DNA of 64,000 nt from Bryum argenteum (lineage: Eukaryota; Streptophyta; Bryopsida; Bryales; Bryaceae), in assembly GCA_037043015.1 (NCBI GenBank), contig CM073321.1:36668420-36732419 (forward strand), read 5' to 3'. The notes beneath the pieces were generated by a model, which had not been told where the DNA came from, ran no database searches, and saw nothing but the letters and a program-made list of their open reading frames with translations. The stretch's first letter is position 1; every line of letters starts with the position of its first letter. Below are positions 11,125 to 47,066 of the stretch, in pieces. The position numbers and the translations under genes are program-made.

Positions 11125-13053
11125 TGTAATGATGGGAGAGGGTCATGATGACCCCTTTCCGCCGTCATTCTGCTCCTCACTTTTTCTTTTTGTGTTCCGT
11201 AGCTCCGCTTCCCTCCGCACTTCGTGTTCCTTCCGCACTTCGCGCTTTTGCAACGGCAGCTCTTGCATTTCTGAGTGCAGCTCGCAGCTCCGTATTGCAG
11301 CTCGCAGCTTCGCTTCGTTTTCGCAGCTCTTGAAGGTCCGAGTTCGGAGTTGCAACAACAGCTTTTGCAATTCGTAGTTGCACCCGTTTCGCAGCGCCGC
11401 GTTTTCTCGCCTTCGCATTTTCTGCTTCCCTCTGCCTATGCATTTCCAGCTTCCCTCCGCCTTCGCGTTTCTCTGTTAGCTGCGCCTTCGCGTTTCCCTG
11501 TCAGTTCTGCAGCTCGCGTTGCCTATTATGGAGTTTCTGCAGCTCGCATTTCCTTGTTTCGCTGTTTCTTCGGTTCGCGTTTCCCTGTTTTACTGGACAT
11601 CGCGTTTTCCTGTCTGCTGCACTCATCGCAAACTTCAGTGCACTTCACCATCCTTCGATTTGCAGATGCCTCAAAGCTTCTCCTTTTGCAATTCATGTTT
11701 TGCGCTTTCCTTTCCATGTCTTGATTGTTAGAGCTTTGATCACAATTAAGGGTTTTCGCTTCTGCTTTTGCATTTCAGGTTTTGCGCTTACTGCAGTTTG
11801 AACAAGAGCTTTTCTAGTTTTTTATTTCTGTACTTTGCTTGAATAGAGTGGAAGTACTGTTTATGAGGTTGCGTTTTAGCATTTTCAGCTTTGATGTTTG
11901 AAGCACATGGTATCCGAATTCGTACTAGGGTTTCAGCTAAATCAATTGTATTTTCTTTTGATGATGAAGGTATCTGCTTGGAAGGCGTCGTAAGTCCAGT
12001 ACTCAACTAAACTCATCATTGAATTGGGTTTTAGTTTGTCATAGCACATCCAGCCTTCACTTTGCATTCTTTCAGGTGAGCTCCGAATTCTATTTGCTTT
12101 GTTTCGATTGAAGAACTCATTCAAATTGATTGAGATTGCTGTTGAATTCTAAAATCTACGCCGTATGTAGATAATACTTCGTTTCACATGATTGCCAGTA
12201 TGCCAATGCACGAATTTTCATCACTGGCTACCAATATTATCCCCGGACCGGGGGTTAAATCTTGCGCATAGCCGCGTATTTGGCCTATGTAGGGAGGAAT
12301 TATCCCCGGCCGGAGGATAATATTGTAAATCGCATATGCTATAAAAAAAAGACTATAAATTATTCCTGGGTCGGGGATAACTCCTGAAAAAACCATAAAA
12401 TAAGTCATGTAACAAACAATTATCCCCGGCCGGAGAATAATTTTGCAATTTCTCATCAAGATTTTCCACCCAAAATCAAGAGATTATCCCCGAACCGGAT
12501 ATAAATCCTGAACATACCCGTAAATATCAACCTGAAAAGTAGAAATTATCCCCGGTCCAAAGATAATTCCGTCATCTCGCCCTGTTTTAACACATAAATA
12601 TAGTAGATTGTCGCCAACCCAGGGATAAATCTTGAACAAAATCGGATAAATTATCCATTGGATTAACAATTATCCCCGACCCGGGGATAATTCTGCCGTT
12701 TTGCCTCAGTTCCTTATAGAACATACAGTGATTATCCACGCGCCGGGGATTACTCTCAAACTTTGTTGTAGATAACAAAACATTGAAGTAAAAATTATCC
12801 CTGGCCTGGGGATAATTCGGCCGTTTCGGTTCAGGTCTACATAGAACGACAGGAGATTATCCCCGCTCCGAGATAAATCCATAACTTAATCGTAGATAAC
12901 CCAATGCCCTCTAACAACATCACCATAGTCAACTCAGATCTTGGTATAATTATCCCTGCCGCGGGATAATCTCATATGTCTACGCACCTACACTTTGGAT
13001 TGATTCAGAGATTTCAAATTCTAACTCTGTCATTTACAATAGCAGACAGAACA
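11125..13053 (+). promoter_or_regulatory. 5' leader region of the locus A ParB-like gene
   Basis: From 11160 to 11780 the strand is rich in GCAGCTCG, CTTCGCGTTT and CCTTCGC phrases in loose tandem. This is probably a transcribed leader; the ORFs here are low-complexity shadows. From 12237 to 12972 lies the palindrome array described separately. The first plausible coding start is ATG 13054. No TATA box stands out. Confidence 0.45.
12237..12972. repeat. Palindrome array P3, twelve copies at about 61-bp spacing
   Basis: Copies start near 12237, 12299, 12359, 12420, 12482, 12546, 12605, 12669, 12731, 12794, 12855 and 12948. The consensus is a 10-base arm TTATCCCCGG, one central free base, and the inverted arm CCGGGGATAA: a 21-bp core with the same 10+1+10 design as the P1/P2 palindromes but unrelated sequence. 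Many copies have compensating or single-arm changes. Further copies lie in the introns and one exon of the gene downstream. Confidence 0.92.
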
Positions 13054-14441
13054 ATGGCTCTCAGCGCCACAAACCCCCTTGACATGTCCTTCGACAAGGT
13101 CCAGCACCAGTTCGGGTTTGACCCCTTCCTGCGCGATAACAATGACGAAAGCCTTGATCTCTAGCTCTTCAAAAATGTGGTCGTCAGCTGGACGCTTAAG
13201 ATTGTCAAGAACCATGTCCTCGTCATGACCAAGTTGGTCTATACAGACCCTTTTTTCCATTACACCAGAATGTAAGGGTAGCAGCATTCGAAGCACACAA
13301 GCAGAAAAACATGTTGCTCAGGTGTGTCCTTCTATAGCAGGACGAGGGTAGGGAACCTTACCACTTCGGAATTATAGTAGAGGTGGGAGTAGACTGCGGA
13401 GCACAGTTAGACCCGCTCGGTTTTCTTGAGGAACTGCGCAAGACTCGGCATGGCTGGGAGAACATCAACAGCTGGGAGAACATCAACCAGGAAGATACAG
13501 TTCGGAAGCTTACGACAATGCTGTGAAGACTATCATCGACGCATGAAGGATCAAGCTGTAAAGCGGCTAAGAAGAAGAAGGCACCCGCCGCGTCTGCACT
13601 TGTCCTGCATCCTGAAGCTTCAGCTCCGCTATCAAGTGGTGCTCTGCCGGCTCCTCCGCGAGTGCCTGCGAAGAGGCTGATGAATGATGCGATTGTAGAG
13701 GGCGGAGCCGCACCTAAAAAGAAGAGACAGCGTACAGCTCCCCCTGCAACCTCAAGTCAAGGATTTGCCTTAACTTCTACAGTCAAAGTGTCTGCTCAAC
13801 AGAAGAAGGATACATCCAAACCTTCGGCTGAAGTGGCAGACCATGTGAGGTTTGCATCTGAGCAGACAGCCTTCAACGCCAGCTTCAAAGACTTGTTCCT
13901 GTTCAAGAAAGAACAGAAGTTGGTGCCCATTTCGCAGCTTGAGAGGGAAGAGCACACGTGGGTAGTGCAAAGTCTTGAAAAGGACGTCGTATCGAACACC
14001 AAGAAATACCTTTCAAGGATGAGAGATATTACCCGGAGGGAGACAATTATCATCACCTCCCTTGACGCCAATGGAAATTTGCTCCCTAGGCGGCCGACAT
14101 CATGGGAGGCAATCATTGATGGCTAGCACTCCAAGGAAGCCTTGAAGGAGCTTCAGAACGAGCCCGTGACAGAGGACATGAAGAAATAACTTCTATCGTG
14201 GTATGCCTACATTCTTTACGAGACCGACCCGAAGCGCCTTACAGCGATTTTGGCATTCTACAACACCACAAACCCTCTTAAGCACGCCCAGCCAACGTAG
14301 GGCAACCAGATATAACCTAGGAGGTCTATTTGGATCGATTGTGGGCGTCCGTCCGCAAGCGTGAACGAGAACACGACTCGGAATAACGACTCGGTCTACA
14401 ATCCCACCAATTTTAAGGTAAGACAATACACGTTTCCCATA

Positions 14442-14637
14442 GATTATCCCCGGGCCGGGGATAACCCACCGTCTGTTTCAGTATTACTCCCACTGCCTAA
14501 GATTTAGACTCTCACTCAGGATTACGTCGGTACATTTTTTGGGCACTTGTTCAGTTTCATGGTTGATGTAAGTCTCCTCTAGAACTCCATGCTATTACCA
14601 GGAAGACCGGAACAGTTATCCCCGACCCGGGGATAAC
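14442..14637. repeat. Pair of P3 palindromes in intron 1 of locus A gene
   Basis: Near-perfect copies at 14442-14465 (GATTATCCCCGG-G-CCGGGGATAAC) and 14615-14637. The homologous intron of the locus B gene holds two copies of a different palindrome (31998-32057). Confidence 0.9.
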
Positions 14638-16126
14638 TACGCTCTAGTACTCAGAAATGAGCAGCAATAAACTCCCCGTAGGCTCTTAGTACTTACACTC
14701 TTTGCATCTAACACTTTCTTTCAATGTCCTCTCAGAAATTTACGGCTCCGCTCAACATCCGGTTTCACAACATCAATCCCAACAAGGCAGGGAAGATGAT
14801 TCTGACTACATCGGACCTCAAGCACAAGATCCAGATCATCACATTTGCGGACACCATGTACGATAAGTTCGAAGAGTTCCTCGAACTCCATTCGCTTGGG
14901 AATTTGATCAACCTCGACAGAGGCATGGCTAATTCCATGAACCCATCTTACTTCACACATTATAAACATCATGTGAGTCGGGAGTTCTTCAGAAACTTTG
15001 GAAATCTTTTTGATGATGACATCGACAGGGCCATCACTTTCCTCGTCGATGTTGAAACCGCCGATGGAGTGATGAAGTATCCAAGGTTGTCCTTCCACAA
15101 AACCAAATACTTTCATCGCTTGAGCTACGCATGTGGAGATTGGATAATCCATCAGAAGTGCAAGGCAATCGTGTACCAAGAGTTGAAGGCGGTTAGACCA
15201 TCTCTTCCATTTTTCCTTTCCAACGGCGGAGCAGTATGCCCAGAGAAATGAAAGAAATGAAAGTCGAGGAAGGGCTTCTCGACGGCGTCGTGGAACATGC
15301 AGCTCAGCCACGTCTAGGCTAAATTCTACTCGACCCGGCTGCAGAATCAGAGGAAGTGCAAGACGGCCGGGGAGATGAAGCTCATGTTCCCCAACATCGA
15401 GGACTTCTTTAAGAACTTCATGTGGGAGAAGTCCAAGCATTGAGAGTCCAGCAAGGGATTCGATCTTCGAACCTTCGACTCGAAAGCCATGACTCTAACT
15501 GGCCAATGGTCAACAGAGGCATCTGCAGAATCAGTTTCTCTAGGGCTGTTCGATTTGCGAGACACTGCCTTCTCCCTGTGCAAGGACTCCAATTCTGCGA
15601 ACGAGTTCTTCAAAGCCTTGGTAGCAAAGTTTGCGGTGATATCATGTCCAACTTACACAGACCCTACTATATGGGTCTGGATCGTGAACGGCGGCATTGC
15701 GAAGAAGCTTGAAAAGCTGAAGTCGATGATTCAGCTCAGCCACCCCAACTACACAATGAGCACGTTCAAGTACGTGGTATTGAAAGCTGAGAAGATCTTC
15801 AATGCGCCAGCCTTAGAGAAATCTGCGAACGACGTGTTCATTGTCTTCTTGTTCAAGAAGACACCTGAAGGGCAAGCCTTCATCGGCACCAACCCCTCGG
15901 AGTTCAAAGCCCGACTTGTGCCATATTACACAAATAGTGAGCATTACAACGAGTCCAAGTGATGAGCTAAGTACTCGGAGCTGCGGATGGAGTTTTACAT
16001 TGGGCTCATCCACCAGTATTGCAAGAAAGGTCAATCAACACTCGGGATCTTCTCCGGCTCCAAATTCATGGTCGCCTCCCTGGTAAGCTCGACATCCACC
16101 ATCCTCTCATGGATTGAAATAGTACC

Positions 16127-16307
16127 ATTATCCCCGCCCCGGGGATAAATAGCTCCCGTGCTTTTATAACTTTCGATGTATTCTAGTGTTGATATTCGGC
16201 CATGTCATCTAAATAGATTTTCTTGTACATATGTATTCGTGTTGATGATAATCTTGCTTATCTCTCGATGTCAAGTTCTATCAGTTATTCTAGGTCTGGG
16301 GATAACT
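16127..16307. repeat. Pair of P3 palindromes in intron 2 of locus A gene
   Basis: A perfect-core copy at 16127-16150 and a degenerate copy at 16283-16307 (AGTTATTCTAGG-T-CTGGGGATAACT). The homologous intron in locus B also holds two palindromes (30422-30480). Confidence 0.85.
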
Positions 16308-17751
16308 TTACCCAGTCCACCGGGACTGATCGTTACTTCTCTTCCCATGCAGATCCTGAAACATGCCTTTTATGGCCTGGTTGACAAGCACTACTCCGGG
16401 GGTTACCTGCTCTCTGCGGGTAAAAGGGCGAGGGTTGACTATAGGGACTTCATCCTCAATGACTGTCTCTACGACATCAAGAAGAACTCATCGTCTGACA
16501 AAATGGCTGACCTCAGCCTCGTAACGAGGGCTTCATTCGAGGGAAGCCAACCATCATCTTTAGCAGCTGAGCAGGTGTCCGACGTGGGAGCTGAGAGTAC
16601 GCGGTCGCCTCAAACTCAGGCCCCAGATACTTCTTCAGACTCCTCGGAGGAGAAGAATAGCGATGATTCTTCCAGCGACTCCGATGGTGACGATTCCGAC
16701 GACTCGGACTATCGTTTGGTTAGTCAGGCGACTGGAGATTCCCTGGTCATGCAATCCCTGCATGCATCGCCCACAACACCATGAGCGTAGGCAACGCCTA
16801 CATCAACATTAGCGAAAGCATTGCCAATAGCACCATTAGCGGTTGCTATGGAGACATCTCCTCCTAGGTCCACTCCGATGAGTGAGGAGCACCATGCGCA
16901 GGGGCCTGATACGAAGACCCGATGCCCTGGTAAGGAGCCTATGCCAATGATCCCGTCGAGGCTCGTCGAGACGACGACAATGCCTATTCAATCATCTGCG
17001 GATGTTATTGTCGAATCATCGGGCAACCCCGAGGCGCTTGCTGAGTTGCGGAGGCCATTGAAACGCCGGCTCGATCTTGCAGCTGAGACGACAACTCCGA
17101 GTCAACCAGTGGATGGGGCATCTTGCGCCATGCCCTCATCTACTGTTGCACCTGCAGTGGACACAACCCCTCAGAGTAAAGTCTTCACCAGACGGGGGAA
17201 ACCACTCTATGCAATCATGGCGCCCACCCACGTTTACATCGATCTGAGTGACGATGACGGCGGAGATCCAGCGGATGAATTCTATGTTGTCCACGTCTCA
17301 GCTCCCGAAGGCGAAACCATCGAGCTCCCGTCTTCGACACCTTTTGAGCTTCCGTATTCAAAACCGGGCAGTTGACGATACCAAGCTGCCAGCTCTTGAT
17401 GCTGACACGCCGGTGAATTAAGAGAAGGTTGTTATGGTGTGCAACCCCTCTACTGACCCGATGGCAAATGCAGCAAGAGTTGCGCCTCCTCCAGGTGCCT
17501 CGAGCGTGAAGGTTGAAGAACACTATGGGGAGTACATGAAGAAGTTAGCCGAGGAGGCCAGACTGGCAGTAGAGAAGGCCAAGAAGGAAGCACAGGACGC
17601 AAGGAAGCTCGCAGAACGTGACGCCACGATCGAGTGGATGAGGACCGATTTAGGACGCGAGCCGATGCCAGCCCACATTGCTTGGATTGTTGCAGGCGAG
17701 AAGGCAACTCTTCATTCGACCTCCGACGCCCCGAGTTCTGAGCCTGCTGCA

Positions 17752-18153
17752 GATTATCTCCGGGCCGGGGATAATACTGCCACAACCACCGCCGCTCTAC
17801 CTAATAGCGAGGTGGAGCCCTTGCCGCTGCCGTTGGGCACAGCCTCCCCAGATTATTCCCGAGCCCGGGATAATCTTGCAGCTATTGGCTGCGGGAATAT
17901 CCTTGGTAGGAATGAAGGATCCGGAGACGCTCTTGCCGATCAGCTCGATACGGCTAGAGATTATCCATGGCCCGGGGATAATCCAAATTCTTCCTTTGAG
18001 GTGTCCCCTCCCGCCGACCAACTTGCCGTAGGTCCTAATTATTCAATTGTGTCAAGCGCTGCTCCAGGTGGTTGACTCTACTCATCCACCCGATTCTGGT
18101 CTAGAAGTCTCTCAGTACGATCAGTTGGTGAATTATGCCCAAGCCGGGGATAC
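17752..18153. repeat. Four P3 palindromes within exon 3 of locus A gene
   Basis: Copies at 17752-17775, 17851-17875, 17959-17983 and 18131-18153. The first three share one reading frame and give DYLRAGDN, DYSRARDN and DYPWPGDN; the fourth gives NYAQAGDT in the frame used there. They lie in a disordered Ser/Pro/Glu-rich tail, a region tolerant of short in-frame insertions. Confidence 0.85.
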
Positions 18154-18533
18154 TGCGGAGCCAGGAGTCGAAGTGGAGGACACCGTAGGAGCTCGAGGTG
18201 CTGGAGAGGGGAGTGCGGAGGTCACACCTGATCTAACTGCAGCTCCGGAGTCCGATAAGCAAGAGTTCGCAAGCACTCCGGGGTGGACTCAGGTCAATGC
18301 CCATGTACAGGAGTTGGTGGACTATTCCTCCTGCCCAACGGACGCAAATCAACCGCAAGAGCCACATGATAACGTAAGTACTTTCACCCTCCCCCCACAA
18401 CTGCATAACTCGTCGTCGTCAAAACCGTCATGATATTGTTTGTCTTGGTCTGAACGCTTTTGATTTGCTTGCCTGAACTTTGCTTATTCGTCTATTTTCT
18501 CCTGCAGGAGATCGACAACCCTTACTTGTTATG

Positions 18534-18911
18534 ATATTTCTGGAGTTGTCAACGTTTGCTGTGGCGCGTCATGTATTATAGATTTTTGGTAGTGTTAGTT
18601 CTCAGCTTAGTGTTTCGGTCAAAGTTGACAAACACATCCCTTGTACATAATTGATGTAAATAAATTTATTTTTGACATCGATATTTTTGCCTTCAAATTG
18701 GAGTGTCATTTGATGTTCCTCAATGTCTTTCTGAGTTCACCTCTGTGGGATTCATTCTGCGCCCACGCGCCGTGAGATTGCATCAGAATCCGATCGATCT
18801 GGCCCCAATGCCACGAATGCAATGCATGCCGTCATTGTGGATTTGCTCAGATCGAAGTCTCTCTGCTTTCAATCAGGTATCCTCAACATTATTGTTTTCT
18901 TTGATTGCCAG
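18534..18911. other. Intergenic spacer between the two locus A genes
   Basis: It holds the 3' flank of the ParB-like gene, with AATAAATTT near 18660 as a possible polyadenylation signal, and the 5' part of the FCP1-like gene. A short acidic exon may exist upstream, as in locus B, but I cannot define it. Confidence 0.4.
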
Positions 18912-20949
18912 GTAGAATTGATTTCCCAATTTGAGTGTATCCGGCGGCCGAGGTCTGCACTCGGGCAGACGGCGCCTCCTCGATGGTTGAATGTCGTCCT
19001 CGACATCAACGGGATCCTTTGTCAGTGTGTGCATCTGCCATCGGCGGGGAAGAATTCTCCCATGTGTTCTCCTAGGGACCGGCTCTACGTGCCGGACATC
19101 CCAGCGAAGGTGCCTCCAAAGGCGGTCTTCAGCCGCCTGGGAGTGAGGGACTTCTTCGAGACCATGTCTGCCCATGTTGCGAGGGTTGTGATATGAAGTT
19201 TGATGAAGAAGTCCACTGTTGAGGCTGTTATTGACTACCTCTTCAATGGACTTCCTAAGCCTTTCGTGATCCTCGGACAAGAGTCTTGTGGCTTGGTTGA
19301 GGTTAGCGGCAGTGTCTATTTGTTGTACCCAACCAATGCGCAGAAGAGGATATTTTTGAAAACGCTGTCCTCTGCGGTGTTTCCGCTTAGTGACGGAGCT
19401 GTTGTGTTTGGGTTAGATAATACTCTCCTCATTGACGACAGTCCTGAGAAGAGTATTTGCAACGACACCGGAAACGCCATTTTCCTTGAGCCTTGGTCAA
19501 AATCTTGTTGGGACGACAATACTTTGTCCGCTGTGCTTAGTCTGTGGCTACTTGCTCTTCTCGCCAATTGCAGGCCTGAGAATCTTCGATCCTATGTCAA
19601 CAATCATTGGATTGGTATTCCGCCTCTCAATAAGTATAGCAATTTAGGGAGGTTTATTTTAAACAATAGGGCGCAGTCGCATAGGAACTTAGGGCATACT
19701 TACAACACTCCTTCCTTTCCTAAGTCATTGTCACAAGGGCGCTCTTTATTCATTTTTCAGGACAAAGTAGATAATTATGTAAATGGGTTGCTACTGTATG
19801 AATCAGTTTGGTTTAATAAAAAGCCGATTATTGTATCATCCTTTATGACGTCATTTTTACCCGATCCGGAGATAATCTTTCAAATTATCAACTTGTATGC
19901 ATTCAGTCTTCTGTTCTCTTTATGTCGAATTTGATTTCAATTTGGTTGTTTCCTTCTTAAGTTCTTCTATGATATGTGCTTGTGAACCTGATGTCAGTTC
20001 TTCCCCGCTTGAGTTATCCTCGCTTCGTGGATAACTCTTGCATATTCCTACGTCCATCTTTTCTTGACCCACGCCTTGGCTTTCTGGTTTTGTTCTACAG
20101 GTCAAGGCGCCTTCCACCCTCGACGAGTCCGGTAATGAGGATGATGTCTCTAATCGGACCTCCATCCCCAAATGTTCCGTTTCACTCTCAGCAAGTGTTG
20201 CCGCCTCTCTCGCGTCGAGGCATTTTTATATGTTCACAGCTACGGACGCAGCATCCGCAACGATGGATTTTACAAGAGATAGTGTTGATGACAATGTTGT
20301 CGACAGCCCGCCGAGTCGTGGTCTTGCTCAGACTCATGTTTGCTCTGCGTCTCCCCTGAAGCGGCTTTGTACATTACCATGGCGGCGGCGCTCCATGTCG
20401 CCTGATGCTCTCAATTCAAAAACACCTCAGTGGCAGCTCTATTCCGGTGTGGGTACTATGGGCGTCCCTTTGCGAGATTCAATTGCATGTCCTTCCACCA
20501 TTAATGTGGGTGGGACATCCAAAACATCACAACCTGGGTTCCGAGTCAACAATTATAACACTAGCAGGACAACAAGATCCCTCGGCGGTGCCCCGCGACA
20601 ACTTCGTTGAAAGGGGGATTTCTTGCCTCTTGCAAAGCCACTAGCATTGCGCCCCCCACCATCAAGGCGAGCTTCTTGCACACCCCGTCCGTATCCTGCC
20701 AATGGGGAATTGGCAGCCCCTTCATCTTCTCGTCCTTCGCGTTCTCTTGACTCTCTTCGTAGGGGTGATGGAGAATGTTTTGACACCTGGTTTGCCCGTC
20801 GGAGTGAGACTTTGGGTACTAATTGCTTGCCAAATTCTCGTCGCAATGATCTTATTCGCGCGCTTATGAAGCAACACGAGGCCGAAGTCAAGTTGTTGGA
20901 GAATTCAACCAAGCTGAATGGCTCTAAGTCTAAAGAGACAAAGCCTTAA
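18912..20949 (+). pseudogene. FCP1-like HAD phosphatase-fold gene, locus A
   Basis: The main exon begins after gattgccag at 18912 and runs to about 19760. It carries WLNVVLDINGILC (HAD motif I), a motif II segment at VARVVI-x-SLMKK, and NTLLIDDSPEKS (motif IV, DDSP kept), followed by a typical FCP1-like FLEPWS...DD..L tail. The second Asp of motif I is Asn (D-I-N), so phosphatase activity is doubtful. An in-frame TGA at 19194-19196 replaces the Trp of the locus B protein (VWSSMM). The last exon, 20102-20949, follows ttctacag and encodes ATMDFTRDSVDDNVVDSPP and a basic C-terminus, with one TGA at 20608-20610. The intron between them holds a palindrome at 20011-20037. Family role would be Ser/Thr phosphatase on acidic substrates such as the RNA polymerase II CTD; here inference only. 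Confidence 0.65.
20011..20037. repeat. P3-like palindrome in intron of locus A FCP1-like gene
   Basis: GAGTTATCC and its exact inverse GGATAACTC flank a degenerate centre. A weaker half-copy (CCCGATCCGGAGATAATC) lies at about 19860 in the same intron. Confidence 0.7.
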
Positions 20950-21640: not shown

Positions 21641-24230
21641 TCTCAAAATAACGAATATCCCCTTCTAGGGAAATTAGGCAGTTATTTTTAAGATATGGCG
21701 GGGAGTTCCCTCTATATAGCGGAGATTAAGACGGATTTCTTGGTGAATGTTCTCTCACTCCATCCGCGGACGTTCCGGGTGCCTCAAAACATGACATTCC
21801 AGAAACCCCTAGGAGTGAGTCTTGTGTAGGGTCCTCTTTAGGCACCCCCATAAATTCAGCAAATCCTATCGTTGGAGCAAACTCTGCTTCTTCCATCCTA
21901 ATTAGAAGAATTAAGGATACTTGCCCAATGATTGGATCTATGAAGCAAACCAAACAACCTTCAATTGAAGCTACTTTTGCAGAAGCGGATAGGTGAGAGT
22001 TGGATAAACTTTGGCCAAAAAGTTTCTACGAAGCAAATATACCATTTTAATAGCCCGGAATGATGCATTCAAAGCAGCTGTGATGAAGACTGCTGGATTT
22101 CGAAAATCCTATGCTCCACCATCTTACCATGACATCCGGAAAAGGTTGTTGGGAGAAATAAAGACCGAGTGACAAAAGAAACTAGATAGTAGACTCTCTG
22201 AGAGCCTTCGGAAGTTTGGAGGAACTTGAACCATGGATGGATGGTCATGCGTGACTAGTCGCCCTTTGGTGAATGCGATGCTCGTGACTCAAGCTGGAGA
22301 GCTTTTTCTTGGAGCAGTGCATACTACTAGCGTAGAAAAAACAGCGGTGTACATGTCAACTCTCATGTTGAAGTACATAGAACAAGTTGGACCAGAGAAC
22401 ATTGTTCAAGTATGCACAGACAACGCTTCTGTAATGCTGAATGCCTCAAGAATAGTCCTTGAGAATTATCCGCACATTTACATGCAAGGGTGTGCGACAC
22501 ATGCAATGGACTTGTTGTTGGAGGATTGGGGAAAGGCTGGATGGATGGCGAATACTTTGGTCATGGCGAAGAGAATGGTCAAGTTTATCAAGAGGCGACA
22601 AATGCCCCTGGCTGTGTTTCGTAAACACGAGGCAAAATTCAGCCTACTGATGCCTGGGAAAACAAGATTTGCTAGTCAATTCATAATGATAGATCGCTTG
22701 TTGGAGGTCAAGGAATCATTGGAGCAAGTTGTTGTCGACCCTATGTTCACAGCCTATGCCTCGAAGAAGATGGTATCAGCTAGAGATAAGCTTATATTCT
22801 CCCGTAAGATCAAAAAGGTGGTGTTGAGCGATGATTTTTAGGAGCAATGCAAAAGATTATGAGATATGGTGGCCGCCGTAGTCTATGCTCCGAGAGAATT
22901 TGAAGGTAAGGCTCCTAGTACGGGCAAGGCTTAGCATATCATGCGTGAGATCTTGAGATCCATGTCTATACTTTGCATGCACCGCCATTATCTTTGGAAC
23001 CACTTGAGGTGGCCACTGCAAAGGATGAGTTTTACCATCGGAAACGGCTCATAACAATTGATTTACATGACGCGGCTGCACTTTTAAATCCTTATTTACT
23101 ACATGACCAAGAGTTAGCTGACGATCCCGATCTTACAATAGCTTGCAAGCGTGTTTTACAAAAACTATGTTCCGCGGAGGATTATGGAGACGTGGTGAGT
23201 AAATTTCTTTTGTTTCAAGTAAAAAGTCCACCATTCCATGACATGCTGGAGCCTGAGACCCAAAAAGTAGCTCCACATGCATCGTGGGAATTTGACGGTG
23301 CTTGTGCTAAACTCCTCTCTCCAATTGCAAAGCAAATACTAGCACAGACTGTGTCCTCGTCGGCTTGCAAACACAATTGGAGTAAGTACTCTTATGCTTA
23401 CGACAAAAAACGGAATCGATTACTACCGGGGAGAGCTGATGACTTGGGCTACATATATTCCAACTCGAAATTGCTTGCAAATGATAAGTTGAGTGACGAT
23501 GAGCGGTGGTATAGAGAGAACTTGGATATAGAGGAAGACCAGGTACATGAAAACGATGAGGAAGCTATCGAGCATGATTTAGAGTTTGATGACAATGATA
23601 TTTTTGAATTTGGTGATGAAGACGGTGATATGACTTTCTTCCCCGCTTCAAATGATTAAGATGCTCTTAATGTTCACGATGCTAAGGGTGATTTTATCGT
23701 TGATGGTGTTTCGGCGGATGATCTAGAGGATGAGCACCCGTTAGCACGATTAATGACACAAGGCGGCATGGACATATCCAATAACATCCCACCTGTTATT
23801 GCTAGTGTTTAAGAGTTGGAAAAGGAGACGATAGACGTGAAAACCACCGCGTGCAATACAAGTGCTGGCACTATGAGCTCTGATCCAGTCACAGAGAATA
23901 TCGCATCTTGTAGTAAGGATTATTTATCTTTACATTGTGCTACTCCCCGCGCTTTATTTCAACTCTCTACCTGTAAGGGTTACGAGAACCTTGGAAAATC
24001 CTCTATGAGTTTGGTATCACTTTCAAGAGCCAAATATGGGAGCATCTCTAGTGACTGTGATGTACCTTTGGGCAGGTATTTAAAAAATGCCAATGTTCCT
24101 CATACTGCCACGGGGTTACAGCACGTGCTTGGCACTTCCAAGTTGCATAAACAAAAATCTGCAACGGTTCCAATTGTTCCGCCAAAAAAACCAAAGATCC
24201 TTGTGAATCTCCCAGAATTTGATACTTGAC
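21640..24230 (+). mobile_element. Decayed hAT transposase gene (hAT-1)
   Basis: The N-terminal part (PSREIRQLFLRYGGEFPLY, 21660-21720) matches the start of hAT-3 at the window end. A DUF659 domain follows at 22233-22840 (MDGWSCVTSRPLVNAMLVT, IVQVCTDNASVM, GCATHAMDLLLEDWGKAGW), then the hAT C-terminal dimerisation region at 22973-23659 (SSACKHNWSKYSYAYDKKRN, DLGYIYSNSKLL) and an acidic tail. Several in-frame stops and at least one frameshift near 22970 inactivate it. Terminal repeats were not found. It is older than hAT-2. Confidence 0.85.
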
Positions 24231-24841
24231 ATAAATATGGGAATATACAATGTCCAGAGAATAAACCCAAGATCAAAGAAGAGGTTCCAAGCGATTATGA
24301 ATATGATCCTATGGTGTCTAATGGAGCTGAAGTGAAGGGAGATAGCGATTATGAGCAATCCTCTGGTCCTGCTGAGTAGTTGAATTTTGCATCTTTATGT
24401 AGTATAGGTTCATAGAATTTATCCTTATTATAGATATTGTAACTATAGTTTTTTGTAGTACTATATTGTTATACTCCCAATGCATTTGGAGATACTATTG
24501 TTTACATGACTATTTTTAATGTGTTGAAAAAAATTACATATATCTTTACATACTTGTCGCACGATGGTCTTGCCTCTCAAGCATAGAGAAGAAATGCACA
24601 TTAAACCAAAAAGATTGCACCCCTTAACTTCAAAAATAATGCCCCATTAGTCAATGGTGGCATTTTCATCATTTTTAAAACAACATCCATACAACTTAGA
24701 AAATGCATATATATTTATACGTGCAAACTTAAGGTCCAACATCTGTTCAAACTTCAAACTGAAGATCCATCCGATTGATCGATCTGAGCTATACTACGAG
24801 TACGCGGACTTTGACAACCTAGGAAAAGCCTATCTTTATAC
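24231..24841. other. 3' flank of hAT-1 and left flank of the large hAT interval
   Basis: AT-rich up to about 24650. From 24731 to 24815 it resembles 57768-57845 (phrases GGTCCAACATCTGTTCAAAC, CATCCGATTGATCGATCTGA, GCTATACTACGAGTACGC). On the minus strand this corresponds to the 3' end of the RING-type gene right of the interval. No intact gene. Confidence 0.6.
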
Positions 24842-25110
24842 GTTCAAACCAGGGTTGTCTTATTAGACACTGTCGGACGTCAGACAGACATTGAGCCTCA
24901 GAATGTCTAATAGAATCTACAGAATCTTTTTTTTACCCTTGATTTACCCTGTCCACGTTGCATCCTACGTGGCTGCCACGTGGTGTGTACAACTCAGCAA
25001 TACGGTTCGCGACGTCATTGTGAATTACATGGCTAAATGAGCACTCAATGACGTGAGATGGTCATCCATAGGAGTCTATGAATTGCAAGAAGAAATACTG
25101 ATATTATAAA

Positions 25111-26470
25111 CTAATAACTGTCCTCTCTAAATACACACTCCGGTGGAAGCATATGATATGGTTTCCCCATCAAGCGGTTCACCACCTCCCCACAGGTCAT
25201 TCTCTTCTCCGATTCATGCCTGGTCAGTGATAACACTTTTGATAGGAATGATTCTCGCACCGTCGAATTCGGAAATAATTCTTCGTCGAATTCGTTTTGC
25301 ACACCAATCAGCTGGATGAGCTTGCCAACCGCATACGAATCTGATGCTACTGTGGTTTGATGTCAAAGTTCCTGGACGTTCAAATTTGTATCAGAACTTT
25401 CAGGTCCATAAGTATAGAACATCTCGGGCGCCACCCACCATCGACGTGCCATATCTTCTTCTTTTTTCTTCTCCGTCTGGTATCCGTAACGTGAAGGCTG
25501 TTGTTCTACTATACGAGATGCCATCCCCCAGTCACACACTCCAATACAAATCTTGCCTTCTCCGAGAGTTGGGAAATGCAATAGTATGTTCGAGGGGGAT
25601 AGGTCGTTGTGAAGTGCTCCTGTCTTATGCACGAGATTCATGATGTACACTAAACCCCAAGCTAACTTCATCCTATGCTGACGGAAAAGGCTAATTCTGA
25701 AAGCCTCCTCTTGAGTGAGACTTGGAACTTCCTTTACTTTCGACCAGTGAAGATGTTTGTTGCCGACCTTCTCATCCAACTTCAACATTTTGTGTAGTGA
25801 TCCTCCATTCCACCAATGTGAGTAAGCTTCGAATGTCCTTGTATGCAACGCCCAAAACTTGATAATTCCTGGATGATTCAAAGGACTTACAAGAGCTTCT
25901 GCTGCAGTCTCTATCCTCCTCTTCTGAAGATTCATATTCTTGGAAAGCTTTGCTGCAAACTCAATATAATCTGGAACGTGGTCTACTCCAACAATCCGCA
26001 CCTTCCGCACCAGTCCATGGTTTCCCTCCATGTCGCGGGCTGATAGAGCTTCTATCGTAGCGTCTTGAGGAATCCACACCACCCCCGACCTTGTCTCTTG
26101 TTCAAATGTGGCGTGCAAAGCGGTTTTTTCCCATGACATCCCTCGGGTTTTATTTTTGCTAAGCTTTTGGACATAGAGTTGCCACCAATCCATCTTGCGT
26201 TTACACTGGTCCTCCTCTTGTGTTAGACGCCTCTGTCCAAATCGCTTCTTCTACAACTCCTTTACATTGAAGATGCACTGTTCAATTGTATTCTCCATCC
26301 ACAACTGGTACTGCAAATGATAATCCACATCTTGGAATTCTTCCGATTCCGCCATGGCCTTCATAATTACCGCCTCTAATTTTTCCTTCAGTCTCCCTTT
26401 ACCGGTGCTAACATTCTTCAAGTAGTTGTGCTCTAGGAATTGAGCCTCCGTTTCCTCATACCAATCCAAA
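25111..26470 (-). pseudogene. Protein-kinase-like gene with HND and DWG motifs
   Basis: Minus strand. An N-terminal helical region (EETEAQFLEHNYLKN...) is separated by an in-frame TAG at 26251-26253 from the kinase domain. Visible motifs: AAKLSKN (possible ATP-binding Lys), LVSPLNHPGIIKFWALH, WWNGGSLHKML, catalytic loop ALHNDLSPSNILL (HRD replaced by HND; Asp and Asn kept), CIGVCDWGMAS (DFG replaced by DWG), and ARRWWVAPEMFY (APE). The C-lobe resumes in another frame after about 25370 (EFDEELFPNSTVRESF, HESEKRMTCGEVV). The kinase is therefore broken by one stop and one frameshift. It faces away from WCHI-1, and the palindrome array between them could act as a shared promoter region. It is the first gene inside the left hAT end. 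Confidence 0.65.
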
Positions 26471-26613
26471 CACGCTAAACCTCAAAAACTCCTCAGACGA
26501 CTCGGCAATGCGCATCATTAAGACGAGCAAGGACACAGGGCGAAGGAGAGTTCGGTAGCGGTTTGGGGAAAAGTAATATCAAACCCGCGCGTTGGGGTTT
26601 ATATATCCCTGGA

Positions 26614-26872
26614 GACCGGCGGTCGCCCTACAGTCGCCCATCGCCGGTCGCCCAAGGTCCCGCTCTCGCGACAGCTGCACCGGCGGTCGCCCTACGTCCC
26701 GCTGTCGCGAACATCTGCACCGGCGGTCGCCCCACCTCCTGCGTCGCGACAGCTATACCGCGGTCGCGCCCTCACTGAACTGCCGGTCGCCACGCAACGT
26801 CGTACCTCTGTCTGGACCGCCGGTCGCCTTGATTCTGTGGTCGCCCCGGCGCGAGGTTGCCCTATATATTCC
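26614..26872. repeat. P4 palindrome array between kinase and WCHI-1
   Basis: Several copies of a GC-rich motif, ACCGGCGGTCGCCC, with an 11-bp odd palindromic core GACCG-S-CGGTC, separated by related phrases such as TCCCGCTCTCGCGACAGCTG. The region is strongly GC-rich against AT-rich flanks. Confidence 0.85.
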
Positions 26873-26995
26873 CCCATCGTGCAAGAACTTCTTATTTGGG
26901 TTTACTGGCCTCGCGCGCTGTCTTACATCCATTAAATTGGCTGCATGCTCGTTCCTGGTAGATAATAACTATTCGCCATTTTGGCTATTTCATCC

Positions 26996-27640
26996 ATGGC
27001 TACTCTCGGGCAACTTAGGAAGGAAGAGAACAACAAGAAGAGGAAGAAGAAGGGCGCTCCACAACGGAAAAGATTACACATGCTTCAAAATCCCAATAAG
27101 CTTGCCTCAGAGGTTGGGAAGATGAACCAGATATGTGGACGATGGCCACTTGCGGATTGTTCATTGAATGGTGTCACATTGACAAGAACTTCCCTCTGTC
27201 TCGTCACCATTTTCATCGGCGCACCAACAAGGCAAATCTTAAGTTTTGCGATTGCCCAAACTTCAAACAACAATGCATTGAGGTTTACAAAGTTCTGTAT
27301 GGCATGCCATGTGTGGAGCGCAACGAGGTTCCATTGTTTCTTGCTCGTGGAGTATACGCCGAGGTTGCTCTTGGTAAACAAGTGGATTGGACAATTGTCA
27401 AAGAGGGGAAGCATGTAACACGACCTTCAACGAGTGACATTCCGACAGGCATTCTAAGATTCCCTGATGCTCCTAATGGTGGCATGGCAGTGAGGAGGTC
27501 TATTACCAAGGCTATGGAAGAGGCTTCCTATCATAGTGCTACATCGGAAGAGGACGATGACTCGGATGGTTCGCGGCCTCGTAAGGCGGTGCGTCAAGTA
27601 CAACAACCTCTTCCTCCCGCCAGCGTTGTGATAGTTTATT
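26996..27640 (+). pseudogene. WCHI-family protein 1 (unnamed family)
   Basis: The protein starts MATLGQLRKEENNKKRKKK, a Lys-rich N-terminus as in its paralogues. One base shift precedes the core domain, which runs GWEDEPDMWTMATC, FIEWCHIDKNFPLSRHHFH, NKANLKFC, QQCIEVYKVLYG, RNEVPLFLARGVYAEVAL, VDW, about 105 residues. The shared pattern in five copies of the window (GW-x(n)-WCHI-x-KLFP-x2-RH-x2-H ... C ... EVW ... EV-x-Y ... YAE-x-IL) suggests a small helical domain, perhaps metal-binding through Cys/His. A short acidic tail (SEEDDDSDGSRPRK) follows. The gene is tail-to-tail with the locus B FCP1-like gene. I do not recognise the family. Confidence 0.55.
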
Positions 27641-27655
27641 CGTTCTTGGAAATAC

Positions 27656-29327
27656 TTAACTCAAAAGCACTAAATGCACAGTGGAACAAACCTTTACAAA
27701 AGCTTCATCAAAAATATCCGCGTCAATGTTGTATAACATACGCTTCGTAGGCGTACATGTAATTTGAAGAGGAGAACCATTCTGATTTATTTTTGGAGCC
27801 GATTGCAACACCTTTGGAGGTGATGACTTAGTGACAGGGCTATTAACTACTCCATCTTCTACTGCCATTGTCGAAAAATCCATGGTAGATTGAGCCGTTT
27901 CAGCAGACTGCAATAATCGTCCTCTACTCTGAAGTGAAGGCCCGAAATCCACAGCATTCATCAGAGAATCCACAGAAGCACGACAATCACCTTGCGTAAT
28001 CTATTTCAACAATTTTTCAAACTGAAAATTCAGAAACCAATGAAAAGTCCTACAAAGCTACTACGGGAGGTTCACATCCTAAGATACAAATTCAAATTAA
28101 GATCAAAGGGTCGAAAATTACTTGACAATAGAATATTAAATAATCTTTCCTTCTATTAATGCCTTTTGTATATCATTATAAAGATCTAATGATGCACGAT
28201 CATCATATATCATGGCACGTCCAAATGGTAACGATGACCGAAACTTGCTAAGGGAACCGTCAAACTCATGGAGCTCTAACTGATACGGCAAAACCTCATC
28301 TAACAAAATAGAATCCTCGTGTGCCCTATTGTCCTTGTGAGACCAGGATGGTAGTAAAATTACATTATCCCGCTGATTAAGCACGTGCTTAACTGGACTA
28401 TCATCTATGATGAGCGTATTAGCCTCTCTATAAAAACCATCAAAGCTATTGAAGAGATGAGCTAACAAGGTCTTAAGGAAGATAGACTTCTGAGTTCCCG
28501 GTTCCTTCATGAACAATGGTCTGCTCCCACCAGATTTCAAGGGAATCATGTCACAATCTTCTTGACCAAGAATTCGTAGTGGCCTTATAGGGTTTATAGG
28601 ACTGAAGAGAAAATCACAAATGGCTTCTGTGGTTGTTCTCATCATCGAACTCCAAACCGTGATGGTAGCCAACGATGCCACCTGAGAGAGGAAGTCCTTA
28701 CTGTTGGGCCTCACCCATACAAGCTTCTTCCCCACCTCGGTTGGCAACGTGGCTGAGCGAATACGGAAGTCACGATTTCTGTATCCTTTAGCTTCCCAAA
28801 ATGGGGAACAACTGCAAAGGATACCATTGAGGTCGAGAACAACATTTAACCAAGTACCGGAGGATTTGCTTGGAACCCGACCTATGTCTTCTCTAGAAAT
28901 TAAATTATTGACCGATGCTTCGTTGACCTGAAATGAAAACGGCGCACCACGACAAAATTACTGGGGAGCTTTCGTCACTGGTGCGATGAATTCAAGGTCA
29001 GAAACATAAAATACATCGCAACGATGGCATGGGTGAGAGCAGTGTTTGTGGAACAGAAAATACCTGATTATCATAATTGCTCTCCTCTAAGTCAACTTGG
29101 ACACCCATTGACCCGAGTGACTGCTCAGTGCAATCTATCTCATCACGGACAGCAACAACATTCTGTGTATGTGAGACATCATGCAATTTGAGTGTGTCCT
29201 CCACCGATGGAACCCGCTCATGGTGATAACATTCAAGCGTGACATCATCCATGACTGGAACATCGATTGCTTCGTCATCCAAATTAACATCTGGCAAGCA
29301 ATACAAATTCATGGAATCAGGAAACAA
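27656..29327 (-). CDS. FCP1-like HAD phosphatase-fold gene, locus B
   Basis: This is the least damaged member. An acidic upstream exon (about 29327-29064, ending DNQ then gtattt) precedes the main exon, which opens after catttcag at 28927 and stays open to 28136: TWLNVVLDLNGILCSC (motif I), ITVWSSMMRTTTEA (motif II), NTLIIDDSPVKH (motif IV) and VILLPSW. The last exon, near 27973-27656, has STMDFSTMAVEDGVVNSPV, the family's C-terminal signature. Exon joins at the 3' side are not certain. The second catalytic Asp of motif I is Asn, as in locus A, which argues for a pseudophosphatase or binding role. It lies downstream of, and on the same strand as, the ParB-like gene, as in locus A. Family: FCP1/SCP-type, normally nuclear. 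Confidence 0.65.
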
Positions 29328-29384
29328 TAAGATGGAGGAAATAGAATATGGGAGCCATCAAGAAGCAGATAGGAAAAAGGGCAA

Positions 29385-29411
29385 CAGTTTAGCTCGAGTC
29401 GAGCTAAACTG
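29385..29411. repeat. P2 palindrome upstream of locus B FCP1-like gene
   Basis: A perfect 27-bp copy: CAGTTTAGCTCGA, central G, and the exact inverse arm. It lies between the 3' end of the ParB-like gene and the FCP1-like gene. Confidence 0.92.
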
Positions 29412-30421
29412 CAAAACAGTAAAGGCCTGTATTAATTACAAAAAAATGTCTGAGTTTGATACAAAATTTCACATGTATATGTGTTTTCCGGCATTTACAG
29501 CATAAATACTATACACTCGATCCAAAATCTAAGTTGAAGGAGGACCTGGAGATTCTTCTTCTTCGTCACCCACAAGTCGTATCTCAGGCATAGGAGAGGA
29601 AGGCGCAGGCGGGGGAGGCTCGGTAGTTGGAGGCGGCAGGGACATGAGTGGTTGCAGAGACGTGGGTATAGCCTGTGTAGCAGTCGTGGTTGCCATTGTC
29701 CGCACCGAAGTTAATGTGTGGCCGGCAGTTAAACCCTCCATCATCTCCATCATCTTGTCGTGGCGTTCCTGTTCCCTCTTTTCGCGTTCCCGCTGCTCAA
29801 TTTTCTGCTGTGCAAGGAGCTCTTCCAACTTTTTCCGGTGTGCCATCTCCTCCTCAACCTTGCGCTGTAGTGCTGCCAATTCAGCACTCTCCTCGGCCTT
29901 GAACCTACTTGAGGGTGAGTCCCTCGACAGGGGATTACGTTTCCGCTTTGCACTCCCTCTGCCTCCTCCTCGCCTGGGAGCGGTACGCGACTCCTGCGGT
30001 GTCCGAGGGGTCGTGTCGATTTCCATGTATTGCTCTTCGTCATCCCCTCCGGAACCAAGGCTGTAAGTGCTTCCTTCACCGTGAAGTTGCCTTCCACTTG
30101 ACCCAGAGTCCTCCTGGTCGGGGACGTCCGCCTCATCGTCGAGGGCCTCTTCATCCAAAGACGCAACAGCTTTGCGCTTGCCTTTCAAGAGCATGGCGCC
30201 AACCTCCGGGAACTCGACTTTGTCGACGAAATACCCGTTCACGGAGAAGTCAGTAGGATCAAGAGTAAGCCCTTCATCGTACGCGTCGTCGATGTCCTCT
30301 CTATCTTCGGCGTCGAATATAGCGTAGGCGTCGAGAGACAACATCTACAAAGAAAACAGTGCAGCTTAAAGAACTGAAATCATCTGTAACTAAAGCGGAA
30401 ATGATTTGAAAACAAGCTTGA

Positions 30422-30480
30422 CAGTTTAGCTCGAGTCGAGCTAAACTGTATGACAGTTTAGCTCGATTCGAGCTAAACTG
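30422..30480. repeat. Pair of P2 palindromes in intron 2 of locus B gene
   Basis: Copies at 30422-30448 (centre G) and 30454-30480 (centre T), 32 bp apart start to start. Both arms are otherwise perfect. They lie between donor 30533 and acceptor 30345. Confidence 0.93.
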
Positions 30481-31997
30481 TAGGGGTTCCTATGCGAGCG
30501 AGGATAATCGAGTTTTACTACAGCGAAGCTTACCATGCTTGCGCAGACTGCTTTCCCGCCGGCGTAGACAAGAAAAATGTTCTCTTGCTCTTGACAGAAA
30601 AGCTGGATGACCTGCAAATAAAAATCCATCCTTAACTCGATCGGGGACATGTGGTACCGTGACTCGTTGTACTTCCGCGGCTTCTCGTAAAGCGCGTGCT
30701 TTGGAGCGCGATACTCGGCCTGAGGCATACGCGCGAGGTTCACGTTTCCCCTGATCATGAAGAGAAGACGCACAGGCTCTGAGGCTTGCTTCGCTTTCGC
30801 GTTGTATCCAGCGAGCCGTTCGTGCGGGGATGGATAGTACATCGACGGGATCAGCTTATAATTCCCTGGGAAGAATGCAGGATTTGTCGCGAACGCCTCA
30901 ACTTGCGCGTATTCACTCTCACCCCCGCAAATAAATAATCAGCAGGGAACATCTTTCAGAGCTGGCTTGTTCTGGGAAGATAAGATCGCCATGAACATTT
31001 CGAAGAATGGGTGGTCAGGCAAGGAATCAGTTGAGGAACTACAACTACCCGAAACCAATCTGAAGTCGATGATTCCGACGTTCATCTCGGGTGCAGGTTC
31101 TGGCCATTTGTTCTCAGGCCAATCTTTCAGCCTCTGTGGTGTTTTGGGCTTGAAGGAACGGAATATGAGAGTACCAACAGGGCCAGTAAACTTTTCGCGC
31201 TTTTCCAGAAATACCTCGAAGAATCACTTTGCGTAGGGAGAGAGATCTTCGCAGCTGGTATTCCTGTGCTGGGTTTGCCTCTGATCTGCGTAGTACTTAT
31301 CACGAATTTTCCATTCCAAAAGTGCGCGCTTTGAGGCCTTCGTGACGTGGTAGTCTTTCTTGAACTTCATCCACGCATCCACGTCGAACTCGTTGTTCTT
31401 GAAGATTCCCAGTTGAGGTCTGATCTTGTGGATCTGAAGCTGGGCGGTCGCCTTACGCTTCAACCGTTCAACGTACTCCTTCACGGAGTAGCAATCTTCA
31501 AGAAGGGTTACCAGTTGTTTGAGAGTAACCTTCGGGTACTCCAGTTTCCTTGACGGACCTGACCTATTCAACATATGTGAACAGAGTTTTCTATGGTCTG
31601 ACTCCGAAAGGTTACCGAGGTTCTTAAAAAATTCCCTCGACAAGGTTTGATCGCTGTCTGGTTTGAACACTGGCTTGTCACACAGCTGCCTCAAGGAGTA
31701 GGGGTCGATAAGGGTCCCCTGGGCGACACTTCCAATCAACTCTGCCCACAGGTTCCAGAGATCTTCAGGGAAGGTGATAATCTTCAGCTCATTCGTTAGG
31801 GACAAGACCTTGTGCTTCACCTCTCCTTGGGCCTTGGCAACATCAATCATGGCGAACCTATGTCGAATGGAGTCCACGAATTTCTGCAATGCCACAAGTA
31901 ATGTAAGATGTCAGTGAAAGATAGCGGTAACTTTAACTTTATTGTGCATCCGGAATTCAACAGCTGTATATATCTTTGGTTTATTAAGCAGCAACGA

Positions 31998-32057
31998 CAG
32001 TTTAGCTCGAGTCGAGCTAAACTGCAATTTCAGTTTAACTCGACTCGAGCTAAACTG
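31998..32057. repeat. Pair of P2 palindromes in intron 1 of locus B gene
   Basis: Copies at 31998-32024 and 32031-32057, 33 bp apart. The second has one changed base in an arm (TTTAACTCGA). Confidence 0.93.
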
Positions 32058-33624
32058 TTACGGGGAACAATTTGGTATGATAGAAGGTAGATATGTGATG
32101 CGACATGAGGTAATACTTACGTCAAAATTTGCGAATTGTGACACAACTCGCTTTGTTTACACACGCTTATCCGCCACCCCAGCTCCTGCATGTCTATTCG
32201 CTGGGCGCCCGTAGTTCTCCCACACAGTGCGGGCGGCAAGGATGTTCGATGCCCATGTCGGCTTAAATGGAGTGAAGTGGTTCACTCTGTTATAAAATGC
32301 CGATATCTTGCGGAGCTTGGCTTCATCCTTTGTCCAAACTACGAAAGCTGACCATACTCGGAAGTCATTGCGAATTGTTTCTGGGACTTTGGACTCAAGC
32401 ATCTGCTTCGAGGCGGCAACACTGTGTTGGCCGTTGATGATCCAAAACTCGCAGTCCTGCATATCTTCCAGGTCGTTCGGCTTCACATCCAGTTTCGGCA
32501 TGACGCAGAGCGTTTGCTTCTGCGACCTGTCGGGCATATCGATGAGATAATTCATCAAGTCTGTCTTGCCCTTCTTCTCGAAAGCCCGAATGGTCTATTC
32601 GGGAGGAGACTCGATTATCCTCATCGTGTCGACATCTATCTTTGTGTCAGGTTTCGGAAAGACGAAACAGTCCTGACAGTCCGTGAAGAACTTCTGATAG
32701 ATTAGGTTGACGTTCTCGAAGTCGATCTCCTCCACGGTATTAACGTTCTTTGGAATGCATTGAATAGCATCGTTCAAAGCCGTTAAAGCATCCTCTTCGG
32801 GGATGAGCATGTTCTTTTTCTTCTTCGCCTCGGTCGATTTCTTCACGGGAGCTTCTCTCCTCATTACAGGCGAGTCTGTAGTCGTGGTAGTTGTTGGGGT
32901 AGGCCTAGTTGCACGTTGCGGGCGCGTTGGGGTCCTGCTCTGTACGCCGCTCCCGGTTGCAGTCAGCCCAGATCCCTCCAGTGGAGCTTTCCCTTTCAGG
33001 TGTATAGTCTTCGCCATAATGTCAGCGTGCGTCAGTGCAGAGACTACAGATCGCAGTTTGATCGCGAGCTGCTTGGCCTTGAGAGCTCCCCCCTGTTTTG
33101 TTTGCCATGCTTTAGTAAGCATATCCTGTTTCAGTGTTGATTTGATACCATCGAAACTGGACTCCTCTAAGCTCTCCACCAACTGCCCCAAGTCGAAACG
33201 AGTCTGCTTGATATCGATCAATATGGCGTAGTTGTAGGCACACTCCTTGTCATCCTCCTTGAAGGTTGTGCACGTCACTATGACTTCCTTCTCTGTTTCG
33301 TGGTCGAAGTCAATCAGCTTGGAGTCGATGTCAACGCACATGGGGTCTTCTACATCCCCTTCGTATGTGACGACAAGGGTGAGGAATGCAGTATATGGGA
33401 TCCACCTTGCAGACCACGAAACCACTTTTGATGGGTCTTTGAATTCCCAGCAGTCTAATTGCTTCGTGTCGTCTCCATCGTCTTCGTCAGCGTCTACCGG
33501 CCTGAGTTTGAAGAAGTGCTGGAGCGCCTCTTGAACTCGTGCCTTCTCTTGACTGTTCATGTAAAGGTTGTATTAGTGTCGGTTTCGATTCACATGATGC
33601 GTAATTCTTACATCCTAGTACTTG

Positions 33625-33697
33625 CAGTCTAGCTCGAGTCGAGCTAAACTGTAGTGGATACAAGCCACTACAGTTTAGCTCGACTCGAGCTAAACTG
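33625..33697. repeat. Pair of P2 palindromes just upstream of locus B start codon
   Basis: Copies at 33625-33651 and 33671-33697, 46 bp apart, 65-137 bp before the ATG at 33560. Confidence 0.92.
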
Positions 33698-45226: not shown

Positions 45227-45361
45227 TCGTAGAAACGCAAAGTCCCTCTACGAGCAAGCAAGCAGCAACACTGAAGTTGATACTAGTCAATGCGCGAAAA
45301 GGAGGGACTCGCAAAGTGTGAAAATGGACTGCCCGTCGCGTTCTTAAGCACAGTAATAAGG

Positions 45362-47050: not shown

Positions 47051-47066
47051 CTCTTCTGAAGCTGCA

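Follow-up and report, generated by a model that had tools for sequence, protein, structure and literature searches.

VANC proteins of the Arabidopsis VANDAL transposons bind short motifs of their own family, which lie in introns, intergenic parts and upstream regions, and the motif differs among related families (excerpts of PMC5735166). VirB of Shigella, a ParB-family protein requiring cytidine triphosphate (CTP), works as an anti-silencer (excerpts of PMC10653881). Here we describe a system in the moss Bryum argenteum that resembles VANC in layout and VirB in fold, although we file it under neither family, nor under ParABS. The DNA analysed, referred to below as the window, is a stretch of 64,000 bases with 42% G+C (assembly GCA_037043015.1, contig CM073321.1, positions 36,668,420 to 36,732,419, forward strand), in which 96 open reading frames were listed and 20 of them scanned for domains. 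The window holds two genes for ParB-like proteins, gene A and gene B, both followed by a gene for a NIF/FCP1-like phosphatase, and the two loci carry palindromes of different sequences, termed P3 (locus A) and P2 (locus B).

We favour the reading, at a probability of about 0.5, that loci A and B are each a copy from one of two families within a single large superfamily of mobile elements, in which the element's own ParB-fold protein acts through the element's own palindromes. Each family's own palindrome was found in an upstream array, in introns 1 and 2, in the 3' region and, in several copies, in a second upstream array. The observed parts of this reading are these positions, the purity of the families among close relatives, the selective conservation of the palindrome and the predicted fold of the protein.

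The likeness to VANDAL elements lies in short family-specific motifs that a mobile element carries in its introns, intergenic parts and upstream regions, in arrays that gain and lose copies, and in motifs that differ between related families (excerpts of PMC5735166 and PMC10398659); arrays of this kind, specific to each family and placed in introns and elsewhere in non-coding DNA, were found here. The VANC motif, as given in the excerpts, has 9 bases, whereas the palindromes described here have 21-27 base pairs (bp). The proteins also differ, being a ParB-fold protein and a phosphatase in the present case, with no Pfam match to the VANC family in the ParB-like proteins, and anti-silencing is a putative role in their case. 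Like VirB, the protein would use a ParB-type fold to offset silencing instead of segregating DNA, whereas VirB is bacterial and counters H-NS (excerpts of PMC10653881) and the present system is eukaryotic. What is shared with ParABS is a predicted fold of the ParB CTPase type, with palindromic sites beside and inside the gene. Nevertheless, we do not file the system as ParABS, because the protein has no Pfam ParB match and sequence searches of PDB returned no ParB chain (nor any methyltransferase chain). No neighbouring ParA ATPase was found among the 20 scanned frames, and the palindromes occur in thousands, with a different sequence in each element family. Phage fusions of ParB with N6/N4-methyltransferases are similar in that a ParB fold is followed by a methyltransferase-like region, weak in our case, in mobile DNA (excerpts of PMC12704722). 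The present system differs from them in being eukaryotic, in its introns, PH-like N-terminus and phosphatase neighbour, and in catalytic motifs that appear to be lost. The terms plants, moss and transpos occur 0 times in PMC12704722, and no paper on this palindrome/ParB-fold transposon system was found in the open-licence PMC literature.

Palindromes in the introns of two ParB-like genes

Perfect palindromes of the design 10+1+10 occur 14 times in the window, against 0-1 in each of ten first-order Markov shuffles. The whole genome (258.8 Mb in 25 contigs) contains 5,878 perfect P2 and 693 perfect P3 sites, against 0 for the reversed control. Because of both contrasts, the abundance of palindromes in the window and the genome is not due to chance. 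The two loci are composed as follows.

Locus A
12237..12815, + strand: P3 array of nine listed copies, about 62 bp apart, upstream of gene A
13965..14354, + strand: core of the ParB fold in gene A; the copy is decayed, contains in-frame stops and shares 29% identity with gene B
14418..14735, + strand: gene A intron 1, with P3 at 14444-14464 and 14616-14636
16083..16352, + strand: gene A intron 2, with P3 at 16128-16148 and a decayed P3 at 16284-16304
17749..18153, + strand: four P3 palindromes (starting at 17754, 17853, 17961 and 18133) within the final coding exon of gene A or close to it
18918..19499, + strand: NIF/FCP1-like phosphatase gene of element A, decayed, 38% identical to that of element B

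Locus B
28139..28957, - strand: gene for the NIF/FCP1-like phosphatase of element B, matching PF03031 (E 6e-13)
29388..29408, - strand: P2 palindrome between gene B and the phosphatase gene
30345..30533, - strand: gene B intron 2, with P2 at 30425-30445 and 30457-30477
31884..32120, - strand: gene B intron 1, with P2 at 32001-32021 and 32034-32054
32121..33572, - strand: gene B exon 1, with a PH-like domain and a predicted ParB/Srx-fold domain, and two in-frame stops
33628..33694, - strand: two P2 palindromes directly upstream of gene B, starting at 33628 and 33674

A preliminary description of this DNA had placed two palindromes in each of introns 1 and 2 of both genes. All eight were recovered within 1-3 bases of the places given, though only four are perfect (14444 in gene A; 30425, 30457 and 32001 in gene B), three have one mispair (14616, 16128 and 32034), and the site at 16284 has decayed, departing from the consensus at 4 positions; it is intact in a relative (L051). 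All eight appear to lie inside GT..AG introns, the borders of which were read from the sequence. P3 is unrelated to P2 in sequence, and the common 10+1+10 design that had been noted despite this difference was borne out. Three of the P3 sites towards the end of gene A (17754, 17853 and 17961) fall inside the open frame 17422-18075 and read as DYxRxxDN-type peptides, and the fourth (18133) lies just past the stop. The preliminary description had overlooked these four sites and the P3 array before gene A, as well as the P2 sites at 29388, 33628 and 33674 and a P2 array that starts at 40909.

A per-position profile extends the P2 site of locus B to 27 bp, CAG-TTTAGCTCGA-N-TCGAGCTAAA-CTG; the contrast in this profile is biased, because its sites were chosen by similarity (≤3 mismatches). 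A variant, P2a, has outer flanks of the CAT..ATG type in place of the CAG..CTG of P2.

Copies of the two genes across the genome

A search with the ParB-like exon of gene B gave 857 candidates, of which 150 were scored and all 150 matched, and one with exon 2 of gene A gave 637 candidates, with 151 matches that include pieces of the same copy. Given so many dispersed matches, loci A and B are dispersed repeats and not single-copy host genes, and are therefore mobile elements or their remains. The copies in the window have in-frame stops, whereas many of the listed relatives are open, including copies of gene B exon 1 elsewhere in the genome. Among the matches listed, the contig of the window (C1, 44 Mb) holds most copies in both searches.

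Palindromes (≤4 mismatches) were tabulated in 3.4-3.5 kb around the best 30 of the 150 B-type and the best 30 of the 151 A-type matches, the window copies included; intron 2 of the B-type copies falls outside these loci. All 30 B-type copies have P2 between exon 1 and exon 2, and 28 of them also upstream, whereas the exon-1 core contains P2 in none of the 30, and P3 is found in none. The number of P2 sites after exon 1 is one in 6 copies, two in 8, three in 8, four in 5, six in 2 and nine in 1. All 30 A-type copies have P3 in at least one of introns 1 and 2, with 2/2 sites (intron 1/intron 2) in 14 copies, 2/1 in 6, 1/2 in 5, 2/0 in 2, and 0/1, 1/0 and 0/2 in one copy each. The only foreign code in the 60 copies is a single P2 near the edge of one A-type locus (L043). 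The earlier claim that the palindromes keep their position thus held, in that corresponding introns bear them in 60 close relatives, none of which lacks palindromes and only one of which, through its edge site, mixes the families. Numbers vary, however, and two per intron proved to be common and not a fixed rule (B-type copies have 1-9 sites after exon 1, and each intron of the A-type copies has 0-2). That each locus keeps its own code was true insofar as the palindrome family follows the protein family in these relatives, but the code belongs to whole clades and many sites, not to single loci.

To see the wider architecture, gene matches were crossed with the first listed palindrome places on contig C1, perfect sites only. 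Two matches were not used, the B-type C1:1315077, which falls where the P2 list stops, and the A-type C1:4690620, which falls where the P3 list stops and has one listed P3 site, 4692165, within the range of intron 2. Four B-type copies have perfect P2 upstream, at about -1.0 to -2.9 kb, in 4/4, in intron 1 in 3/4, in intron 2 in 3/4 and in the 3' region in 2/4, and a second P2 array lies at about -7.6 to -9.3 kb in 3/4. Identity to gene B falls to 67% in one of these copies, which nevertheless uses P2. Another of the four, C1:378682, has no perfect P2 in its introns among the C1 sites listed, and is a partial match. Among seven A-type matches, two at 81-82% identity have perfect P3 upstream, in intron 1 and in a far-upstream second array, and each adds P3 either in intron 2 or in the 3' part. 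In a third match (81%), perfect P3 is confined to the upstream side.

A second P2 array was also found in the window, where the following features lie beyond gene B.

40909..41436, + strand: second P2 array, lying upstream of the DUF7869 frame, with 10 sites (≤2 mispairs) spaced mostly at 45-46 bp
41491..44022, + strand: DUF7869 open reading frame (PF25273, E 1.2e-42)

Because the array stands directly upstream of the frame, the DUF7869 gene may be part of element B, with a putative role in transposition. Alternatively to our reading, the palindromes could serve transposition or replication in cis, with the DUF7869 protein or some other transposase binding them, while the ParB-fold protein is otherwise employed. 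Such sites would resemble the subterminal repeats of other DNA transposons and would suit both the array before the DUF7869 frame and the second arrays about 7.6-12 kb upstream in other copies, but palindromes are kept in introns 1 and 2 and the 3' region, not just near the ends, and we consider this explanation unlikely.

Selective conservation of the palindrome

To compare the palindrome with its surroundings, 29 B-type copies were aligned from the exon outward. This alignment was not selected on the palindrome and is therefore free of the bias of the per-position profile. Mean pairwise identity reached 0.914 over the 27 bp of the palindrome, against 0.892 for the exon and 0.707 for the stretch of intron that precedes the palindrome. 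The palindrome is thus selectively kept: it holds while the surrounding intron drifts, so that descent alone is insufficient, in agreement with the earlier view of simple descent as a poor explanation. The same contrast bears on the possibility that the palindromes are functionless, self-spreading repeats or array duplications that sit in these elements by chance. Arrays do differ in copy number, the repeating unit being 33, 46, about 62 or about 80 bp long, as such repeats might, but the conservation against a diverging intron, the positions common to different code families and sources, and the absence of sites from the exon-1 core of 30 copies render this very unlikely. The element's own protein acting through conserved sites remains the preferred reading.

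The ParB-fold protein and its neighbours

The structure model predicts a nucleotide-binding fold of the ParB/Srx type, consistent with the fold proposed in the preliminary description. The phosphatase of element B matches PF03031 at 49.2 bits against a cut-off of 21.8, and the decayed copy of element A reaches 17.4 bits, below the Pfam cut-off. Three weak Pfam matches were set aside, namely Mis12 in the coiled-coil exon of gene B (E 0.0056, below cut-off), HTH_Tnp_Mu_2 in L066 (E 0.093) and PBP1_TM in the tail of L065 (E 0.00075, below cut-off); L065 and L066 are relatives described in the next section.

DPPY and FxGxG are catalytic motifs of N6/N4 DNA methyltransferases. The protein might descend from a ParB-DNA-methyltransferase and modify the palindromes, thereby marking its own element. 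In L065, an N6_N4_Mtase match improved from E 0.033 to 0.0067 after splicing, and hhalign gave P 0.00078 in register against 0.18-0.79 for three controls; fusions of ParB and methyltransferase are reported to be frequent in phages (excerpts of PMC12704722). However, the match (16.8 bits) stays below the Pfam cut-off of 26.7, the hhalign result is weak, with a probability of only 24.9%, L066 reaches just E 0.049, and the A-type L054 gave no match. By eye, DPPY and FxGxG were absent from three spliced sequences, in which VYAGSK or IFSGSK stands instead, and the motif-I and DPPY-type residues look lost. We find modification quite improbable compared with a protein that binds its own palindromes.

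Relatives elsewhere and a third palindrome

Named relatives in the protein database come only from the moss Physcomitrium patens, besides one partial protein recorded as cyanobacterial. When 84,980 prokaryote genomes were scanned, 21 candidate stretches yielded two relatives, L065 (CADCWO010000243.1) and L066 (CADCWO010000269.1), both small contigs of one cyanobacterial metagenome-assembled genome. Because they are small contigs of such an assembly and have introns, as read from their sequences, they are most likely plant contamination, probably from a moss. A viral home is unsupported, since none of 22 viral candidate stretches held a relative.

Both introns of L065 and L066 carry a third code, P4 (TTCAGCTCGA-N-TCGAGCTGAA), whose two arms each carry a single base change relative to P2, and to which P3 is unrelated. 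Counted with ≤1 mispair, L065 has two P4 sites in intron 1, three in intron 2, two between the genes and one after the phosphatase frame, and L066 has two upstream, one in each intron and three after the gene. In L054, L065 and L066 alike, the two introns are bordered by GTAAG..CAG and interrupt the protein at corresponding positions, and in L065 the ParB-like gene is again followed by a NIF/FCP1-like phosphatase (PF03031, 53.8 bits).

Many database homologues extend slightly into intron 1. Peptides spelling a code were found in 14 of 42 tails (12 P2, 1 P3 and 1 P4 variant). Shuffled tails gave 2 in 21,000, and the upstream parts of those 42 proteins gave none. Searching reverse-translated tails for any palindrome was uninformative, as 38 of the 42 tails but also 640 of 840 shuffles passed. 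In a tree of 70 rows, the A-type L054 lies on a long branch, and only the supported clades of 22 and 6 rows were used. All 12 P2 tails belong to the 22-row clade, which gave 14 tested tails and includes a gene B relative (L006); the tails of P0126 and P0136, two members of the 6-row clade, agree by eye with the two P4 contigs. P2 is thus common to the 67%-identical copy and to 12 homologues from other sources, so the code belongs to clades.

Proteins running into intron 1 also suggest possible intron retention. Together with the location of palindromes within introns of these genes, this would fit RNA hairpins that regulate splicing or trigger small RNAs. We nevertheless hold this to be highly improbable, given that arrays upstream of the gene account for large groups of the sites and that a 21-27 bp dyad with a 1-base centre is typical of a DNA site bound by a dimer, as expected if the ParB-fold protein is the reader.

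Other features of the window

A further array in the window consists of P2a palindromes.

7599..8270, strand not assigned: P2a array of nine copies, about 80 bp apart, near a phosphatase remnant at 6181-6843 (- strand)

Inverted repeats of about 890 bp (48-935 and 3591-4482, 90% identical) each contain a P2a-type palindrome (392 and 4118), and a 54-bp repeat pair starts at positions 1 and 5857. Another pair of inverted repeats (43970-44833 and 62213-63087; 877 bp, 92% identical) encloses about 19 kb, its left end overlapping the end of the DUF7869 frame. A protein-kinase-like frame (25363-26250, - strand; PF00069, E 3.3e-10) stands between elements A and B. Frames of hAT-type transposases were found at 22230-23659 (PF04937, PF05699) and 54967-56733 (PF05699); the former gave the one MULE-type match among the scanned frames, at 22.2 bits against a cut-off of 27.6.

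The motif core GACCGNCGGTCGCCCT, often repeated about 41 bp apart and only half palindromic, has 55 matches (≤6 mismatches) in the window against 0-2 in five shuffles. Its arrays (26609-26830, 45358-45668, 47060-47144, 49626-49824, 51511-51865, 53386-53551 and 57282-57548) lie near another gene family, frames 27100, 44795, 47333, 52072 and 60276, which are alike by eye. This motif may be another private code. An array of the GGCGACCG motif beside other genes of the window was considered as a full palindrome and rejected, having been found only half palindromic.

A possible mechanism and its meaning

Self-recognition of an element by its own ParB-fold protein is probable. Anti-silencing or activation as its purpose is more tentative, at somewhat below even odds. 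In the mechanism proposed, the protein would dimerise on its own palindrome, and the density of arrays would give strong, family-specific occupancy. The bound protein, perhaps a clamp switched by nucleoside triphosphates, would activate or de-silence only its own family, and the neighbouring FCP1-like phosphatase may act on the transcription machinery. Code and reader would change jointly, and families would stay private because they do so.

Several observations weigh against the favoured reading. The structure model has a pTM (predicted template modelling score) of only 0.49, and the protein has no Pfam ParB match at E up to 1 or 0.1. The 60 tabulated copies are the best matches to two queries and thus close kin, so that they are not independent tests. 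Four distant A relatives (33-46% identical) have no perfect P3 within 12 kb, and the sole one of them within the P2 list, C1:233159, has no perfect P2 either. The P2a array of the window has no recognised ParB-like gene beside it, and a P4-like peptide occurs in P0161, a protein of a third clade (Physcomitrium proteins). Finally, P2 is kept at 67% protein identity in the genome and at 36-61% elsewhere; therefore protein change alone does not change the code.

It is attractive to speculate on a eukaryotic transposon system of the ParB-parS kind, in which a nucleotide-switched clamp derived from a phage-type ParB-methyltransferase loads at family palindromes and opens the element's own chromatin, and in which joint change of reader and sites drives new, mutually blind codes; we regard this extended version as doubtful. 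Self-recognition of transposons through private motif arrays has already been worked out for the VANDAL elements of Arabidopsis (excerpts of PMC5735166). If our reading is true, the moss elements would represent a second such system with an unrelated, ParB-fold reader, making private codes a repeated solution, and a bacterial-type nucleotide switch would be working on plant-type chromatin. As the palindromes are short, often perfect and abundant, exchanging proteins and sites would allow the evolution of a protein-DNA code to be tested directly, and the readers might be turned into sequence-specific tools for the epigenome.

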